From: Ornithinicoccus hortensis
GTDB taxonomy: Bacteria > Actinomycetota > Actinomycetes > Actinomycetales > Dermatophilaceae
NCBI RefSeq assembly: GCF_006716185.1
Contig: NZ_VFOP01000001.1
Location: 1,240,001 to 1,304,000 of the forward strand
Reading direction: 5' to 3'
DNA: 64,000 nucleotides
Made by a program: the position numbers and the translations under genes. Of this stretch, positions 30,775 through 37,028 are shown piece by piece. Position 1 is the stretch's first letter; the number at the start of each line of letters is the position of its first letter. The notes under the pieces were generated by a model. The model saw nothing but the letters and a program-made list of their open reading frames with translations. It did no database searches and had not been told where the DNA came from.

Positions 30775-31860
30775 GTGGCCCTCACCATCGGAATCGTCGG
30801 ACTGCCCAACGTCGGCAAGTCCACGCTCTTCAACGCGCTGACCAAGAACACCGTGCTCGCGGCGAACTACCCGTTCGCCACCATCGAGCCCAATATCGGG
30901 GTCGTGCCGCTCGCCGACCCACGCCTGGCCCGACTCGCCGAGATCTTCGGCAGCGCCCGGATCCTGCCGGCGCCGGTCAGCTTCGTCGACATCGCCGGCA
31001 TCGTGCGCGGCGCCTCGGAGGGGGAGGGGTTGGGCAACAAGTTCCTGGCCAACATCCGTGAGGCCGACGCGATCTGCCAGGTGGTGCGCGCCTTCGTCGA
31101 CGACGACGTGGTGCACGTCGACGGCAAGGTCTCGCCCAAGGACGACATCGAGACGATCAACACCGAACTGATCCTGGCCGACCTGCAGACCCTGGAGACC
31201 GCCATCCCGCGGCTGGAGAAGGAGGTCAAGGGCAAGAAGACCGACAAGGAGGTCCTCGACACCGCGCTCGCCGCACAGCGGGTGCTCGAGGAGGGGACCA
31301 CCCTGTTCGTCGGTGGCGAGGCGGCCGGCGTGGACGCGAAGCTGGCCAAGGGGCTGGGCCTGCTCACCACCAAGCCGTTCCTCTACGTCTTCAACCTCGA
31401 CGAGGACGGCCTCACCGACGCCAGTCTGCACGACGAACTCGCAGCCCTGGTCGCCCCGGCCGAGGCCATCTACCTCAACGCCAAGCTGGAGGCCGACCTG
31501 GCCGAGCTCGACCCGGAGGACGCCGCCGAGCTGCTCGAGTCCGTCGGCGTCACCGAGCCCGGGCTGGAACAGCTCGCGCGGGTGGGTTTCCAGAACCTCG
31601 GGCTGCAGACGTACCTGACCGCCGGCCCCAAGGAGACCAGGGCCTGGACGATCACCAAGGGGTGGACCGCGCCGCAGGCCGCCGGGGTCATCCACACCGA
31701 CTTCCAGCGCGGCTTCATCAAGGCGGAGGTCGTCTCCTTCGACGACCTCGATGCGGCCGGGTCGATGGCCGAGGCCCGTGCCGCCGGCAAGGTGCGCATG
31801 GAGGGCAAGGACTACGTCATGGCCGACGGTGACGTGGTGGAGTTCCGATTTAACGTCTAG
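30775..31860 (+). CDS. ychF: redox-regulated ribosome-associated ATPase/GTPase YchF
   Basis: 361-aa Obg-family P-loop NTPase. G1 GLPNVGKST (residues 9-17), switch region FATIEPNIGVVPLADPRL, G3 VDIAGIVRGASEGEGLGNKFL, NLDE (207-210) replacing the GTPase NKxD as expected for ATP-preferring YchF, and the C-terminal TGS domain ending AAGKVRMEGKDYVMADGDVVEFRFNV. The last codons use CGA and TTT, rare in the neighbouring genes, and this terminal 25 nt recurs twice downstream. I infer the 3' end was replaced by an integrating element while preserving the protein. Confidence 0.96.
   Translation: MALTIGIVGLPNVGKSTLFNALTKNTVLAANYPFATIEPNIGVVPLADPRLARLAEIFGSARILPAPVSFVDIAGIVRGASEGEGLGNKFLANIREADAICQVVRAFVDDDVVHVDGKVSPKDDIETINTELILADLQTLETAIPRLEKEVKGKKTDKEVLDTALAAQRVLEEGTTLFVGGEAAGVDAKLAKGLGLLTTKPFLYVFNLDEDGLTDASLHDELAALVAPAEAIYLNAKLEADLAELDPEDAAELLESVGVTEPGLEQLARVGFQNLGLQTYLTAGPKETRAWTITKGWTAPQAAGVIHTDFQRGFIKAEVVSFDDLDAAGSMAEARAAGKVRMEGKDYVMADGDVVEFRFNV
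31836..31860 (+). repeat. ychF 3'-end attachment-like repeat, copy 1
   Basis: Last 25 nt of ychF: GGTGGAGTTCCG, then A, then TTTAACGTCTAG; encodes VEFRFNV-stop. The same sequence recurs with one mismatch at 35024 and three at 33366. It marks the left edge of the low-GC segment. Placement in the 3' end of a conserved gene is the classic attachment site of tyrosine-recombinase elements. Confidence 0.8.
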
Positions 31861-31988
31861 GTGCCGCCGCGCGCGCGGCTCAGTTATCAACACTGCCGCA
31901 GCCGGGGCTCCGTTCATGCATCGAGGGGATCGAGCGCGAGACCGACGGTATCCAGAATCTCCGCATCCGGACGCTCAACGGTGGGCTG

Positions 31989-32537
31989 TCACTGGGCCGC
32001 GCCCTCCGCCCACCGCGTGATGATGGTGCGGGCCTCCTCGACGGTGATCGCACCTGCCAGCACGTCGATCGTGAGACCGTCGGCGAGGGCAAGCACCGTT
32101 GTCGCACGCGCGTTGACGTTCTCTGCATCGGTGTCACATTCGGTGATCAAGGTTGCGACCTCGGCGCGTAGGCGTACCCAAAGATCGCGGTAGACCTCAC
32201 CGATCTCCGGGTCTGTCAGGGCACGTGCCGAGAAGGCGACCCACACACGCGCAGTAGGGTCGTCGATCCCTGACGGGATGAGCAGCTTGAGCAATGTCAC
32301 AAGGCGACCCCTGGCGTCCTGCGCGGACGTGGCCTGACCATACCGTTCGGCCGATCGCGCGATTACAGTGCGCAGCGCCGCTCTCAGCATGGCTGCTTTC
32401 GTCGGGAAGTGGTGCTGTACGGCCCCGATCGAGACACCGGCCCGACTCGCCACCGACCGAACACTGAGGGTCTCGAGCCCGGACTTTGAGATCAGGTCGA
32501 TGACGTGCTCGGTGAGTGCGTCAGCGGCGGTTGACAT
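31989..32537 (-). CDS. TetR-family regulator of element 1
   Basis: 182 aa. HTH LSVRSVASRAGVSIGAVQHHFPTKAAMLRAAL at about residues 24-55, BetI-like. C-terminal domain with ARVWVAFSARALTDPEIGEVYRDLWVRLRAEVATLI typical of TetR_C_6. Start MSTAADAL overlaps the membrane-protein stop by 17 nt, so translation is coupled. Probably binds the two CCATACG-N2-CGTATGG sites upstream of the operon. Lower GC and different codon use than flanking genes suggest transfer. Confidence 0.88.
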   Translation of the reverse strand: MSTAADALTEHVIDLISKSGLETLSVRSVASRAGVSIGAVQHHFPTKAAMLRAALRTVIARSAERYGQATSAQDARGRLVTLLKLLIPSGIDDPTARVWVAFSARALTDPEIGEVYRDLWVRLRAEVATLITECDTDAENVNARATTVLALADGLTIDVLAGAITVEEARTIITRWAEGAAQ

Positions 32538-33114
32538 GAGCACGATCGTAGAACTGTTTGGCCTTGATAGCGGCGTTTGCCACAGCGGCCGCGGGTTCCC
32601 GCCGTCCATCCGCGGTTGGCCGACCGCTGACTACCGCGAGACACAGCAGAAGGACGCCGAGGCCGAGCAGAGCGAACTGCGCCGTCTCGACGAGCAGCCC
32701 CAAGATCTCGGACAGATCCTCGTTGTTCGTCCCCAAGCCCACGTGTACGAAAGTCAGCGCAGATCCGACCGCCACCAGTGCGAGCCCCGTCGAGAGCCAT
32801 GCGACGGGGGTCCGTCCGCCCTGGCGGCCCGCGAATGCGCCGATCACGACCAAGATCACGCTCACGGCGAGCAGAGCTACCCGCAGCAGCGCCCACGCTC
32901 GCATAGTGCCAAGGAACGCCTCGCCTGAGGCTCCTCCGCCGCTGAAGAGGGACAGGCGCGGCCCGAGGAATCCGACGATCGACGCTGCTAGCGCCACGAC
33001 GGCACCTGCTATTCCCCACGTCACGCCCGTCCGGGCCCTTTGCCGGTACATGATCATCAACACGATGCCGCCGATCGGTGCCAGCACCCCCACTGCTTCT
33101 AAGGCCCGGAACAC
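32521..33114 (-). CDS. five-TM membrane protein of element 1
   Basis: 197 aa, unknown family. Predicted TM segments: VGVLAPIGGIVLMIMY, WGIAGAVVALAASIVGFLG, ALLRVALLAVSVILVVIGAF, VAWLSTGLALVAVGSALTFV and QFALLGLGVLLLCLAVVSG, with a basic C-terminus. GTG start preceded by AAGGAG at good spacing. First gene of a two-gene operon with its presumed repressor; the TetR-plus-membrane-protein pairing hints at a stress or efflux-related role, but it is too small for a standard MFS pump. Confidence 0.8.
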   Translation of the reverse strand: MFRALEAVGVLAPIGGIVLMIMYRQRARTGVTWGIAGAVVALAASIVGFLGPRLSLFSGGGASGEAFLGTMRAWALLRVALLAVSVILVVIGAFAGRQGGRTPVAWLSTGLALVAVGSALTFVHVGLGTNNEDLSEILGLLVETAQFALLGLGVLLLCLAVVSGRPTADGRREPAAAVANAAIKAKQFYDRAHVNRR

Positions 33115-33135
33115 AGACCACTCCTTCCTTCAGAC

Positions 33136-33151
33136 CCATACGTGCGTATGG
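33136..33151. promoter_or_regulatory. operator copy 1 of element-1 operon
   Basis: CCATACG-TG-CGTATGG, 7-bp perfect arms, 22 bp before the GTG of the membrane-protein gene. Pairs with an identical-arm site 29 bp away. Confidence 0.75.
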
Positions 33152-33164
33152 TTGAACCACATTA

Positions 33165-33180
33165 CCATACGCCCGTATGG
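33165..33180. promoter_or_regulatory. operator copy 2 of element-1 operon
   Basis: CCATACG-CC-CGTATGG, same arms as the site at 33136. The 29-bp centre-to-centre spacing is close to three helical turns, which suits two TetR dimers on one DNA face. Confidence 0.75.
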
Positions 33181-33365
33181 ATCGCTTTTGGGGTTGGTGG
33201 CGTGTAGGCTTGAGGGTGGCGACAGGCGGCTCGCCGGCAGGGCTGATTTCGAAGGGCAGCGCCGACAGAAGGGTGTTCAGAGTGCGCCTGGCTGTGGTCC
33301 GCAGGCGCGAAGCGACGTAACCCGGGGTATCCTGCGCCGCGAGACTGCCCTATGTGTGGAGACGC

Positions 33366-33390
33366 GGTGGAGTTCCGCTTCAACGTTTAG
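33366..33390 (+). repeat. ychF 3'-end attachment-like repeat, copy 2
   Basis: GGTGGAGTTCCG, C, TTCAACGTTTAG: 22/25 identical to copy 1 and still encoding VEFRFNV-stop. Homology extends upstream in the ychF frame to GDAVEFRFNV-stop (33358-33390), 28/33 with mostly silent changes. It therefore derives from the end of a ychF coding sequence, from another lineage, not from chance similarity. Confidence 0.8.
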
Positions 33391-33417
33391 TCACGCGGCG
33401 CGAACATCTCCCGCTAT

Positions 33418-34227
33418 TCAGTGGACGAGCCCGGTGAGACGCTCGCTGATGCGGCGCAGCTGCGCGCGTGCATCGGTGTCGTACGCCTGCGGATGCATCC
33501 GGCTTCTGCGCGTGCCGTCGAAGTAGTGCCCAGTCGTGTCCGCCAGCGAGGGGTCGGTCGCCAGTCGGAACACGGCCTGCGCTCCTTGGTCGGCCGAGCC
33601 GGATGGGGCGATGCCTGCGGCTCGGACCATCGTCGTATCGAGGTGCGTTCCGGGATGCAGGCAGTTCGCGGTCAAGACACTGGTTGCATGCTCCTGGGCG
33701 AGATCGAACGTGAGCATGCCGAGTGCGACTTTGCTCTGACCGTAGGCACGAGTGCCGCTATAGCCGCTATTCAGCATGAGGTCATCGAAGCTGATGCTGC
33801 TCTGGCCGGCCGAGACGACGTTGACGATGCGGGACGGCCGCGCAGCGCTGAGCGTCGGCAGTAGGAGCCGCGTCATGAGGAACGGTGCGAGGTAGTTCAC
33901 CGCGAGGTGTCGCTCGAAGCCCTCTGGGGTCTGTTCGCGAGGTCCACCGGGGACCGAGATGCCGGCGTTGTTGACAAGGATGTCCAGCTGGTCGCAGGTG
34001 TCGAGGACGGTGTGGGCCAGCACTCGTACGTCGTCGAGCGAAGCGAGGTCGGCGGGTAGAAAGTGTGCCGAAGCGCCCGCCGATTCAGCCTCGGCGACCG
34101 CGTCAGCTCCTCGACGAGCATCACGGCCGTGGAGGAGCAGGTGGTTCCCGGGGCGCGCGAACCGCGTGGCGAGTCGACGTCCGATGCCGTCTGTTGCTCC
34201 AGTGATCAGGACGGTGAGGTCGGGCAT
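33418..34227 (-). CDS. SDR-family oxidoreductase
   Basis: 269-aa classical short-chain dehydrogenase: cofactor motif TGATDGIG near residue 10, HGRDARRGADA (Arg favouring NADP), DLASLDDVRVLAH, NNAGISVPGG near 90, catalytic Ser in VSAGQSSISFDD and Tyr/Lys in YGQSKVALGML near 165. Family resemblance to retinol-dehydrogenase/protochlorophyllide-type SDRs (TANCLHPGTHLDTTMV). Divergent from tetR and probably its target. Substrate unknown. Codon use is less GC-biased than the backbone. Confidence 0.88.
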   Translation of the reverse strand: MPDLTVLITGATDGIGRRLATRFARPGNHLLLHGRDARRGADAVAEAESAGASAHFLPADLASLDDVRVLAHTVLDTCDQLDILVNNAGISVPGGPREQTPEGFERHLAVNYLAPFLMTRLLLPTLSAARPSRIVNVVSAGQSSISFDDLMLNSGYSGTRAYGQSKVALGMLTFDLAQEHATSVLTANCLHPGTHLDTTMVRAAGIAPSGSADQGAQAVFRLATDPSLADTTGHYFDGTRRSRMHPQAYDTDARAQLRRISERLTGLVH

Positions 34228-34254
34228 GGTGCTCCTAACTCGAAACGGAGGGAT

Positions 34255-34276
34255 ACTACGGATTGTGATCCGTAGT
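34255..34276. promoter_or_regulatory. 22-bp operator between SDR and tetR
   Basis: ACTACGGAT, spacer TGTG, ATCCGTAGT: perfect 9-bp arms in the 89-bp divergent gap. Expected to be bound by the TetR at 34317-34913, repressing both directions. Confidence 0.8.
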
Positions 34277-34316
34277 GACTCTACGCTTACGCTGGGTCGA
34301 TGGGAAGCGTTGTGCC

Positions 34317-34913
34317 ATGAGTCCGCCCACTGGCCGTAGGCCGCGCGCCGACGCGCAACGCAACCGGTCTCGGCTCATCGCCGCCGCGCGAGCGGTCGTC
34401 GACGAGGACGGCGGTCTCGGCAGCTTGGACCGCGTTGCGCAAGAGGCCGGCGTGAGCATTGCGACGTTGTATCGGCACTTTCCTCAGCGTGACGCGTTGA
34501 TCGAAGCGATCTACACCGAGGAAGTCGACGCTCTCGTGACCGCGGCCCGAGAGCTTGGAGCCGAACGCGACCCAATCGAGGCACTTCGCGAGTGGTTGCT
34601 GCTGTTCGTCGAGTTCCTCGACACCAAGAGGGGGATGTCGGAAGTCCTCGGCACGCTGTTGCGTGGCCCTGACGCGCTCTTCCGTGACTCGACCGAGCGG
34701 TTGTCGTCCAGCGTCGCTGAGCTGGTTCTTCAGGCTCAGAGCTCTGGGCAGTTGAGTGCTGGTATTGACCCGGTCGATCTGTTGCGCGCGCTCGGCGGTG
34801 TCGCGTCGGTGAATCCCAGCGAAGCGTGGCGGGCCTCTGCGGTCGGACTCGTCGATGTCCTGCTGCGAGGACTTCAGCATCGAGACGACGCCGGGAACGA
34901 GACGCGGCCGTGA
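34317..34913 (+). CDS. TetR-family regulator of element 2
   Basis: 198 aa. RRPRADAQRNRSRLIAAARAVVDEDGGLGSLDRVAQEAGVSIATLYRHFPQRDALIEAIY is a textbook TetR DNA-binding domain (about 7-65); the C-terminal part resembles the SbtR-like TetR_C (LRGPDALFRDSTERLSSSVAELVLQAQ). Start MSPPTGRR selected; the upstream ATG at 34275 lies within the operator. Divergent from the SDR gene it presumably represses. Confidence 0.88.
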   Translation: MSPPTGRRPRADAQRNRSRLIAAARAVVDEDGGLGSLDRVAQEAGVSIATLYRHFPQRDALIEAIYTEEVDALVTAARELGAERDPIEALREWLLLFVEFLDTKRGMSEVLGTLLRGPDALFRDSTERLSSSVAELVLQAQSSGQLSAGIDPVDLLRALGGVASVNPSEAWRASAVGLVDVLLRGLQHRDDAGNETRP

Positions 34914-35023
34914 TGGCCGCTTCAGCGGGCTGGGCCAGCTCGCTGTGCTAACTGGATGGCCGGCAAGGCGTCACTCTGCAGATCGAGCCCGGCGTAGCCA
35001 GATGGTTCTACGTGCTGGAACTC

Positions 35024-35048
35024 GGTGGAGTTCCGGTTTAACGTCTAG
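35024..35048 (+). repeat. ychF 3'-end attachment-like repeat, copy 3
   Basis: GGTGGAGTTCCG, G, TTTAACGTCTAG: 24/25 identical to copy 1. Homology stops just upstream (ychF-frame codons there read W-N-S rather than D-G-D-V), so only the attachment core is shared. Right edge of the tandem arrangement. Confidence 0.8.
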
Positions 35049-35209
35049 CCCGCCGTTCAATCCCACCTTGAGTGCGACACCCATCGGGCGGATAGTGTCA
35101 TGGACACAGGGGAAGGCCACGGCCGTCGCCGGCAGGCCCGACCTCACGCCGCGCGGTGCACCTGGCGGCGTCGACGATGACCATCACCGACAGGCACGGG
35201 GAGTGGCAC

Positions 35210-35620
35210 ATGGCTGAGGCGACCGAGATCCCTTCCTTCCGACCCAGCAGCGACTGGTACGAGGACTGGCCCTTCGGCGTGGACACCTCCGTTCAGGTCG
35301 AGGCGTGCGTCACCGGTTCCGCGGCGGATCGCGCGGTGGAGGCGTTCCTGGAGCCTCTCACGCGCGACCCGGGCGCCGACGGCGCGGGCGGGGTCCGCGT
35401 CCATTACTGGGGCGGGTTCACCGTCGAGTCCGCGCCCTTGACCGACGAGGACGGGTGGCGGATCGTCCTGGCCTCGGCGGGGGAGGACGGCTTCGACTCC
35501 TTGGAGACGGCGGCCGACGCGCTCGTCGACGCGCTTCGCGGGACGCCAGGCGAGGTCCGGCTGGCCTGGCATGAGCTGCCGGCAACCCGCGTGACGGAGG
35601 CGGACCAGGGCGACCGCTGA
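35210..35620 (+). CDS. hypothetical protein
   Basis: 136 aa, acidic, no family recognised. Features: RPSSDWYEDWPFGVDTSVQVEACVTGSAADRAVEAFLEPL, VRVHYWGGFTVESAPL and a helical C-terminal half rich in Ala/Asp. No signal or TM segment. ATG at 35210 is preceded by GGGGAG at 6-7 nt; another in-frame start at 35177 is possible. GC is host-like. First gene beyond the third ychF repeat. Confidence 0.6.
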   Translation: MAEATEIPSFRPSSDWYEDWPFGVDTSVQVEACVTGSAADRAVEAFLEPLTRDPGADGAGGVRVHYWGGFTVESAPLTDEDGWRIVLASAGEDGFDSLETAADALVDALRGTPGEVRLAWHELPATRVTEADQGDR

Positions 35621-35689
35621 CCGCGAGCGGGTGACCCGGACAGGGCCCGCGCAGCCCGCCCGATCGGCGCAGCCACCTACGATTGCGTG

Positions 35690-36150
35690 GTGCCACAGAT
35701 CGAATCTGGTCACTGAGATTCGTGCATTGCCGGAGCGGTGCTTCGAGCTCAGCCTGTCCGTGGATGCGCATCAGGCGTCGATGTCCGACTCCGGGGAACG
35801 CGTCGTCGACGGGGTGGCGACCGGTGTGATGCATCTTGGGGACTTCGTGACGTGGAGGGCTAGGCACTTCGGGCTCCCTTTCACCGATGACGTCGGTCAT
35901 CAGCGAATACGAAGCTCCTCATCGATTCGTGGACGAGCAGGTTTCGGGCCCATTTCGACGCTGGTGGCACGAGCACCGATTCAGCGCGACGGCAGAGGGG
36001 ACTCGCATGACCGACATCGTCGAGTTCGAGTCGCCAGCCGGACCGCTCGGGCGGGCCGTGAACTCACTCGTCCTGACCCAATACATGACAAAGCTGTTGC
36101 GTCAGCGAAACGCCTGGTTGCTGGAGGCGCTGTCTCCTCCGGGAGCCTGA
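35690..36150 (+). pseudogene. frameshifted SRPBCC-family gene
   Basis: Three reading frames join into one SRPBCC (START/Bet v1-like) protein: VPQIES, then TEIRALPERCFELSLSVDAHQASM to VTWRARHFGLPFT, then MTSVISEYEAPHRFVDEQVSGPFRRWWHEHRF to LLEALSPPGA. Each switch is explained by one extra G, near 35708 and at 35886. Restored, the order and spacing (FELSLSVDAHQAS, WRARHFGLPF, PHRFVDEQVSGPFRRWWHEH) match intact actinobacterial homologues of about 150 aa. Either a real decay product or two sequencing/assembly errors. Confidence 0.8.
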
Positions 36151-36197
36151 CGCGCTGCACAGCGGGTGGGAAGTTGTGGTGAGGGCTCAAAGCCGGT

Positions 36198-36215
36198 GCT
36201 ATCGTTGGTGATAGC
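36198..36215. promoter_or_regulatory. palindrome before the toxin-antitoxin operon
   Basis: GCTATC, 6-nt spacer, GATAGC, 18-35 bp before the antitoxin ATG and just ahead of an AGGAGGTGATC ribosome site. Position and symmetry suit the autoregulatory operator of a ribbon-helix-helix antitoxin. Confidence 0.6.
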
Positions 36216-36232
36216 GCAGGAGGTGATCGCTG

Positions 36233-36466
36233 ATGTCATCCATTATCGTTCGAGGTCTCGACGAGGCGGTGAAGCGGCAACTCGCCAAGCAGGCAAAGGA
36301 GCGCGGTCGCTCCATGGAGGCCGAGGTCCGCGACATCCTCACCAGGGCTGCTCGGCGGCCACACATCGGCATGGCATTGCTGGCGGCCGCGCAGGACGTC
36401 GGGGGTGTCGAGGGCCTGGCGGTTCCAGAACGCGATGACGTCGCCCGGTGGGTGGACTTCGAGTGA
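36233..36466 (+). CDS. vapB: VapB/FitA-type antitoxin (ribbon-helix-helix)
   Basis: 77 aa. Residues 1-45, SSIIVRGLDEAVKRQLAKQAKERGRSMEAEVRDILTRA, are the RHH DNA-binding dimerisation domain of the FitA/VapB class; the C-terminal tail VPERDDVARWVDFE is the toxin-neutralising segment. A near-perfect Shine-Dalgarno precedes the ATG. GTGA overlap with the toxin gene, as usual for type II systems. Neutralises the adjacent PIN nuclease and represses the operon. Confidence 0.92.
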   Translation: MSSIIVRGLDEAVKRQLAKQAKERGRSMEAEVRDILTRAARRPHIGMALLAAAQDVGGVEGLAVPERDDVARWVDFE

Positions 36467-36888
36467 TCGTCCTCGACACGAACGTCATCTCGGAGATCTT
36501 CCGGCCCACGCCGGAGCAGCGCGTGGTCCGGTGGCTCGCGTCATTGACGGACGATGTTGCGATCACATCGATCACTCTCGCGGAGTTGCTGGCTGGGGTG
36601 CGCCGGCTTCCGGACGGCCGGCGCAAGGATGCACTGGCCTCACGGATCGACGCGGCGATCGAGCCGTACCGGGGGAGTCGTTCGATACTGCCCTTTGACG
36701 ATGCTGCGGCCGAGCACTACGCGACTGTGCTCGCGGCTCGTGAGGCGGCGGGCGCCGCGATCAGCACCGCGGATGCCCAGATCGCTGCCATCTGCCTGGC
36801 GCACGACGCCAGGTGTGCGACGCGTAACGTGAAGGACTTCGAGCACACGGGCGTGACGCTGGTCGATCCGTGGAGGTGCGACGTGTGA
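36463..36888 (+). CDS. vapC: VapC/FitB-type PIN-domain ribonuclease toxin
   Basis: 141-aa PIN nuclease. Acidic metal-binding residues D5 (VIVLDTNVISE), E41 (ITLAELLAG) and D104 (ISTADAQIAA), plus TRNVKDFEHTG at the C-terminus, are all intact, so it should be active. FitB-like architecture, likely cleaving tRNA or rRNA. The GTG start overlaps the antitoxin stop. In M. tuberculosis a vapBC pair also follows ychF, as far as I recall. Confidence 0.92.
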   Translation: MIVLDTNVISEIFRPTPEQRVVRWLASLTDDVAITSITLAELLAGVRRLPDGRRKDALASRIDAAIEPYRGSRSILPFDDAAAEHYATVLAAREAAGAAISTADAQIAAICLAHDARCATRNVKDFEHTGVTLVDPWRCDV

Positions 36889-37028
36889 AGCCTCGTTCGA
36901 TCGAGATGCTCGCTCACTAAGACCTCGCCCTTGCCGATCGCATGACTGCCGGGTCCAACGTGTGGCGGCATTGTCACTGACGCATCAAACCCGTGGCAGG
37001 AGGCCGCGGACCGTGCGAGCCTGGCCGC

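Follow-up and report, generated by a model that had tools for sequence, protein, structure and literature searches.

Tandem gene cassettes at the 3' end of ychF in Actinobacteria, on sites resembling those of phage-type serine integrases

Staphylococcal cassette chromosome (SCC) elements use large serine recombinases, form tandem composites and include elements without a recombinase, all features that are also seen or proposed at the locus described here. Cis-mobilizable elements (CIMEs) and tandem accretion offer a second precedent: these elements derive from large conjugative elements, are flanked by attachment (att) sites, lack a recombinase and are thought to be mobile in trans. As for integrons, the IntegronFinder 2.0 paper describes Actinobacteria as being without complete ones (PMC9024848). 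We analysed 64,000 nt of the Ornithinicoccus hortensis genome (contig NZ_VFOP01000001.1, positions 1,240,001 to 1,304,000 of the forward strand; this whole stretch is hereafter called the window), in which the gene ychF is followed by two short segments, each closed by a further copy of the ychF 3' end. We argue that these segments are gene cassettes of an integron-like array and that their likely enzyme is a phage-type large serine integrase (LSR).

In the window, ychF (redox-regulated ATPase YchF; 30775..31860, forward strand; NCBIfam TIGR00092, 1.7e-128) ends in a 25-nt sequence at 31836-31860 that recurs on the same strand at 33366-33390 and 35024-35048 (25/25, 22/25 and 24/25 nt identical to the first copy). 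Successive copies are 1530 and 1658 bp apart, and each encodes VEFRFNV-stop, just as a sequence-only reading of the window had claimed. With at most three mismatches allowed, the pattern matched three times in the window and never in 100 shuffles; the 3.94-Mb genome also gave three matches, all of them the window's (reversed control, 0), so that the 25-mer is not a dispersed repeat. A site profile trained on other genomes picked out the same three places and gave no score above 0 on the reversed window. Site 1 (31811..31860, forward strand; 17.4 bits) consists of the ychF left half, a GT and the VEFRFNV-stop right half, and is attB-like, in the attL position. At site 2 (33341..33390, forward strand; 44.7 bits) the same GT and right half follow a variant of the cassette-type left half, resembling that of L192:13609, and at site 3 (34999..35048, forward strand; 69.0 bits) they follow the typical 26-nt left half CAGATGGTTCTACGTGCTGGAACTCG, which is absent from ychF's own copy. 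Measured from GT to GT, and delimited by spacing and profile, cassette 1 spans 31837..33366 (1530 bp) and cassette 2 spans 33367..35024 (1658 bp). No recombinase was found among the scanned proteins of either segment, and the serine-integrase profile matched nowhere in the window. The GC content of the segments (65.2% and 65.3%; whole window 70.8%) is lower than that of the flanks (72.3% at 21.0-30.8 kb and 72.8% at 36.9-45 kb), in keeping with the sequence-only reading, with the qualification that ychF (68.1%) and positions 35049-36900 (67.3%) are lowish too.

Each site joins a left half, derived from the 3' end of the upstream cassette, to a right half coding the last ychF residues. We sorted 249 distinct sites into 138 of cassette type (12-nt left half with at most four mismatches), 83 native and 28 other. 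The consensus of the 138 cassette-type sites is caGAGGTTnnTnnGTgCCGGAACnCG on the left and GTGGAGTTCcGnTTcAAcGT on the right. Only the inner 12 nt of the left half were used for picking these sites; the outer 14 nt, caGAGGttnnTnnG, are conserved though unselected (for example A in 123, G in 121, T in 123 and G in 122 of the 138), and no conservation was seen further left of the 26-nt half. To the left of the end, ychF itself has GACGGYGACGTS, and the extra copies mostly have TRCCGGAAYKCG or variants. At its core the site has an inverted repeat around a centre of 6-8 bp. The alignments place the exchange point at GT in the Val codon of the motif GTN-GAR-TTY, because one cassette start (GTTGAATT..., then TACAGGCTTCTGACC) occurs behind two different left halves, that of a cassette in L041 and that of ychF in G012; these differ just left of G-GT, and the third base of GTN is common to both. 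We at first took GTTGAAT for an integron R box and abandoned this view after comparing site alignments. A further, degenerate right half (such as TCGCGTTCCGCTTCAATGTC) directly behind the regular one is present in some cassettes (L105, L137, L124, L146), perhaps a relic of stacked insertions.

The ychF end was sought in 58 genomes, 31 of the same genus (the window genome, G000, included) and 27 others. At least two copies were present in seven of the former (G000, G008, G009, G010, G016, G021 and G025; the stretch fetched from G009 did not include ychF itself) and in two of the latter (G044 and G046). An exact-site scan of 84,980 species yielded 82 stretches, given as 80 loci, of which 75 are actinobacterial by title; the wider search for the 25-mer that the sequence-only reading had suggested found extra copies recurring in many genera. 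Among the matches listed, in the non-actinobacterial L079, L082, L111 and L132 the match does not extend into a ychF end and looks fortuitous, and L113, a metagenome-assembled genome (MAG) labelled Bacillota, has a cassette that clusters with L038 and L034 and may be mis-binned. Sites numbered one to seven in each of 24 array genomes (controls, 0) and lay on a single contig and strand in 22 of them; a second contig also carries a match in G069 and G081. Strict sites occurred in 13 of 394 genomes drawn from the class (12 of 138 genera), and the distribution of the system is broad but thin. A DNA search of 396 genomes of the order with the window segments returned the window only, a weak test in which two candidates were scored per genome. 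The plasmid collection gave one strong site match, a Nocardia farcinica replicon, and no record of the phage collection covers 80% of the site.

The cassettes cut from the fetched arrays, mostly from the exact-site scan, comprised 146 distinct sequences in 93 clusters (median 1364 bp, range 221-5831 bp, 63.2% GC). A single stretch held up to nine sites over 16.1 kb, and 132 of the 133 loci, a set with some overlap, had all their sites on a single strand. Twenty-four pairs of cassettes reach 95% identity or more across 90% or more of their length. A 2410-bp cassette is shared at 99.46-99.75% identity by Kocuria marina, Cellulomonas gelida, Galactobacter, [Zimmermannella] faecalis and Microbacterium mitrae, and a 1313-bp cassette at 99.5-99.85% by Microbacterium barkeri, a Brevibacterium MAG and Nocardia farcinica. 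The right-hand flanks of both vary from host to host; near-identical cassettes thus cross genera, even orders. Cluster representatives had a mean of 2.3 open reading frames (ORFs), 123 on the array strand and 95 on the opposite one according to a crude ORF picker. Among the 148 of 218 cassette ORFs that were scanned (95 aa or longer, taken in list order), the Pfam families met most often were helix-turn-helix (HTH), TetR, short-chain dehydrogenase (SDR), glyoxalase, GNAT, MarR and AAA; PADLOC defence models matched AriA (three), RmrA (two), AbiD (one) and PifA (one).

We compared the distance from ychF to its downstream neighbours in genomes with one and with several copies. A conserved pair, a small membrane-like gene and a major facilitator superfamily (MFS) gene, begins 1.1-1.8 and 1.7-2.4 kb past ychF in the single-copy G007, G028, G029 and G030. 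The respective distances are 13.2 and 13.6 kb in G026, 12.3 and 12.9 kb in G021, 3.0 and 3.6 kb in G012, and 9.3 and 5.5 kb in G011. In the window, ychF is separated by 10.6-13.1 kb from genes at 42.5, 44.2 and 44.9 kb; relatives of these genes (46-83% identity, putative orthologues) lie 4.0-8.8 kb from ychF in seven single-copy genomes, and 9.8 kb in G010 and 12.3 kb in G025, both with extra copies. The G010 stretch also contains, by eye, an IS110-like transposase. The sequence-only reading had proposed site-specific insertion at the gene's 3' end, twice in tandem and with the C-terminus resupplied each time. This proposal is supported by the half-site structure, the uniform strand of the sites, the near-identical cassettes across hosts and contexts and the longer distances from ychF in most extra-copy genomes, and we infer the insertions in the window genome itself by homology with these other genomes. 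The comparison with empty sites that it had called for was fruitful as regards those distances, and no clean empty-site partner for the window's own flank was present among the fetched relatives. Neither segment is common to any fetched relative, which speaks against an ancestral block (one of the two tests is weak). The enzyme type, the two half-sites, the absent integrase and the spread over Actinobacteria go beyond what had been claimed from the window.

A scan of IMG/VR for the right half found 12 contigs, and in five of these (L207, L208, L210, L213 and L215) a gene of about 450 aa begins 34-46 nt left of the site. The L215 protein contains a Resolvase domain (1.9e-27) followed by a Recombinase domain (2.3e-22) and matches solved serine integrases (best 2.7e-18). 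Y12, R14 and S16 are invariant in five sequences, and we take S16, by its motif, to be the catalytic serine. A similarity search returned 69 viral loci, 44 of which were examined: seven have a ychF-type site (the five above, L252 and L256), eight have no upstream sequence and 29 have no such site. L252 and L256 were located via protein similarity, independently of the site, and both show outer inverted repeats around GT. Within the genus, G026 carries an 11.8-kb element in ychF with an LSR at its end and readable attL and attR. The attL turns the ychF C-terminus into VEFRHGGTSGTGKK-stop, the native end lies on attR, and the DNA right of attR matches that directly past ychF in G007 (1-42 at 86%, 453-1714 at 88%). 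By eye this element had seemed satellite-like, which was not upheld: in six of its proteins, Pfam gave only HTH_17, a HipA-like domain and one sub-threshold match. A frameshifted LSR relative also lies near the sites of G009, at 1.41 Mb.

The left halves beside these LSR genes were scored with a profile of the cassette left half from whose training G026 had been left out. Seven of the eight LSR sites scored above all 1419 control contexts, and the eighth, L256, was reached by two controls; when only the outer 14 nt were scored, between 0 and 23 of the 1419 controls reached the eight sites. With G026 among the 138 training rows, all eight exceeded the controls. An earlier set of 152 control contexts (95th percentile 20.2) turned out to be contaminated, as it included variant cassette sites. 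Because the LSR-adjacent attachment sites resemble cassette left halves, we assign the cassettes to an enzyme of this kind: a phage-type LSR using ychF as attB is the likely candidate, with a probability of roughly three in four.

A tyrosine recombinase might move the cassettes instead, be it XerC/XerD, an integron-type integrase or one of the small phage tyrosine integrases that also use the ychF end. Tyrosine recombinases were found in 11 of 11 genomes searched (PF00589), and the core of the site, with its inverted repeat and 6-8-bp centre, would suit them too. Moreover, tyrosine integrases of about 250-285 aa are encoded beside a ychF-end copy in four viral contigs, within about 150 nt of it in L206, L209 and L217 and next to it in L211; a group of tyrosine-integrase phages thus also has its target at or close to ychF. 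It is the left halves that set the two enzyme classes apart, those next to LSRs matching the cassettes, whereas in L206, L209 and L217 the copy is flanked on the left by ychF-like sequence. Upstream of the exchange point there is no long conserved attC-like part, the PF00589 search found nothing in the window, and 140 array loci gave a single tyrosine-recombinase match, at a contig end (home-made profile, 19 seeds). The dif site presumably differs in look from the cassette site. Taken together, we consider a tyrosine enzyme unlikely. Elsewhere in the window genome (G000:C1:10815-13182), three tyrosine recombinase genes stand in tandem, to our mind reminiscent of recombinase-in-trio elements.

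A dedicated non-phage LSR, resident elsewhere in the array genomes, could also serve the cassettes. At least one Recombinase-domain protein was detected in 23 of 31 array genomes, and one LSR is 93-99.8% identical in five genomes (G000, G018, G061, G065 and G067), four of them with arrays and the window genome among them. This shared LSR is located within a luciferase-like gene that is split, and its score of 285-302 bits compares with 613 for the LSR of G026. Eight of the 31 array genomes, including the single-contig G021 and G046, gave no Recombinase-domain match at E 1e-5, a result that allows for misses, since the broken LSR of G009 likewise escaped the profile. A resident enzyme of this kind appears slightly less probable than a tyrosine recombinase. 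In the 143 array loci and the window (1.48 Mb, some overlapping), a clear LSR relative was present only in G026 and G009, with a weak match in L127. A search of the phylum with the LSR profile (0 of 396) scored few candidates per genome and is thus uninformative. Since the arrays almost never encode an LSR and eight array genomes show none, the phage-type integrase that we favour is probably supplied in trans and transiently.

Two individual LSRs were rejected as the cassette enzyme. The window genome's own LSR (C1:465224), its sole Recombinase-domain protein, lies inside the luciferase-like gene and so has another target, and the LSR of G063 (369 bits) has no site in its 119 nt of upstream sequence. 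The element of the former (G000:C1:465224-466624, outside the window; L337) occupies a luciferase-like monooxygenase gene in five genomes of different genera, with relaxase-like genes around it by eye and a merA-like gene in three of the five stretches; it is a recently spread mobile element.

Homologous recombination or transposition could build such arrays, with the ychF copies as a by-product, and the direct orientation of the repeats and the IS110-like transposase of G010 would fit; given the short homology at the sites, cassette ends that are exact across hosts and the nearly uniform orientation, we regard this as very improbable. Chance or local duplication of a ychF end whose protein-coding right half is conserved in any case, with no mobility, is refuted by the absence of shuffle matches, the conserved non-ychF bases on the left and the recurrence in many genera.

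If a phage-type LSR group with its attB in the ychF 3' end is responsible, the segments would be non-autonomous gene cassettes inserted there in tandem, each opening 5' with the last ychF codons and stop as right half and closing 3' with a phage-like left half. Each insertion would replace and then restore the ychF C-terminus, and the integrase would come from incoming phages or other elements with the same site, acting in trans, presumably in excision and circle formation too. Among cassettes that show an outer motif, those with native-like ends (RFNV-stop) have AACGTCT-like bases 12-14 nt right of GT, and those with RFSN-, RFAL- or RFAV-like ends have AACCTCTG 20 nt right of GT. In A118-type integrases, the zinc-domain motif of attB is 5 bp closer to the centre than that of attP (PMC3783163). 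By analogy, the native-like ends may be read as B' and the others as P'. Under a simple rule, 96 of the 146 cassettes start with B', 14 with P', one with both and 35 with neither. A B' start would leave a B.B' junction at ychF, that is, a renewed attB, and as most cassettes begin with a native-type right half, an attB-like site would remain there as the array grows. Because the ychF-side junction stays attB-like, stacking would be possible with the integrase alone. The idea that the two outer arms of a cassette match each other was unconvincing (22 cassettes, vs 15.2 with swapped arms).

Several observations weigh against this account. Most testable viral LSR relatives (29 of 36) lack a ychF-type site, including L254 at 52% identity, the LSR left halves score -3.2 to 17.7, under the cassette mean of 27.1, and in L215 a tyrosine integrase, too, ends about 25 nt away from the site. 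No LSR stands beside the commonest cassette left half, the CAGAGGTTGGTATGTGCCGGAACTCG type, in the 143 array loci (the left halves of G026 and G009 differ from it), and a site of this type is absent from IMG/VR. In the 23 array genomes with some LSR domain, a resident enzyme acting in trans is possible. G017 has a single copy, yet its membrane-like/MFS pair lies 3.9 and 4.4 kb past ychF. The native-type and P'-type motifs are about 7 nt apart, vs 5 bp in A118, and the P' rule fits only 15 of 146 cassettes. The weakest step is the circle: with a B' start it would be P.B', which by standard rules the integrase alone would not integrate, and which may need a directionality factor or relaxed site choice. 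Finally, the sites, the halves, the arrays, the near-identical cassettes in varied contexts and the LSR genes beside matching sites are sequence-level evidence, and movement has so far been read from sequence alone. We put at about even the odds of the full picture, an integron-like cassette pool shared across Actinobacteria, with the ychF end as platform, an integrase acting in trans and stacking, perhaps also removal, by the integrase only.

In the window, cassette 1 contains a TetR-family regulator (31989..32537, reverse strand; Pfam TetR_N and a BetI-type C-terminal domain; an internal ATG start was chosen from the translation) and a 197-aa ORF (32521..33114, reverse strand) with the look of a membrane protein by eye and no Pfam or NCBIfam match. 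Cassette 2 contains a short-chain dehydrogenase (33418..34227, reverse strand; adh_short, 1.8e-36) and, divergent from it, a second TetR-family regulator (34275..34913, forward strand; TetR_N, 1.6e-09; TetR_C_43, 2.4e-11). Just 3' of the array, at 36233-36888, lies a FitA-like antitoxin and PIN toxin pair that no site flanks; related DNA (78%) forms the first cassette cut from L034, and the pair is possibly a decayed cassette.

If our account is right, Actinobacteria gain a general cassette-exchange system, integron-like in role and based on another enzyme class, with a defined hotspot at which defence, toxin-antitoxin and metabolic genes pass between genera. The site motif lets the system be searched in any genome, and a plasmid assay can test the predictions that follow from the exchange at GT, from the types of half-site and from the phage integrases. 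Natural right halves that possibly serve both attB and attP would bear on how serine integrases distinguish the two. In the portions of the open-access literature returned for ychF with integron, attB, integrase or serine recombinase, ychF was named only in pneumococcal prophage work, those returned for serine-integrase cassette arrays contained no evident match, and the available part of PMC12884075 does not mention ychF.

Compared with described systems, the nearest design is that of SCC and ccr-less SCC-like elements at rlmH/orfX, which likewise restore the gene's C-terminus on insertion and are bounded by direct repeats. The threefold VEFRFNV-stop in the window and the attL and attR of G026 show the same 3'-end specificity, a likeness rather than membership: SCC is defined by rlmH insertion and ccr genes, whereas here the target is ychF, the window array has no LSR, the hosts are Actinobacteria and the candidate enzymes resemble phage integrases rather than Ccr. 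SCC elements also span tens of kb, unlike cassettes of about 1.4 kb in arrays of which almost none fetched encodes the enzyme. CIMEs differ from the present cassettes, which are modules of one to few genes common across a phylum. Phage integrases of the A118/Bxb1 type (PMC3783163) share with the LSRs found here the Resolvase and Recombinase domains, an attP beside int, halves of about 25 nt and a central dinucleotide, in agreement with the L215 protein and with the five viral sites and the exchange at GT; unlike in phage systems, the sites here serve a free pool of small cassettes, most of which share their right half with attB. With integrons and clusters of attC sites lacking integron-integrases (CALIN; PMC9024848), the arrays share small cassettes in one orientation, one recombination site per cassette, integrase-less clusters, toxin-antitoxin and acetyltransferase cargo and cassettes common to distant hosts. 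Unlike integrons, they have an LSR-like site of about 50 bp, a protein-gene platform and genes on both strands; no intI-like gene was found beside them, the contig-end match in 140 loci aside (no IntI-specific model was used), and in place of a long attC with R''...R' boxes, conservation, by which this was judged, ends 26 nt left of the exchange in the 138 sites. By the features tested, the system is neither an integron nor an SCC, and is best described as an integron-like cassette array on serine-integrase sites.

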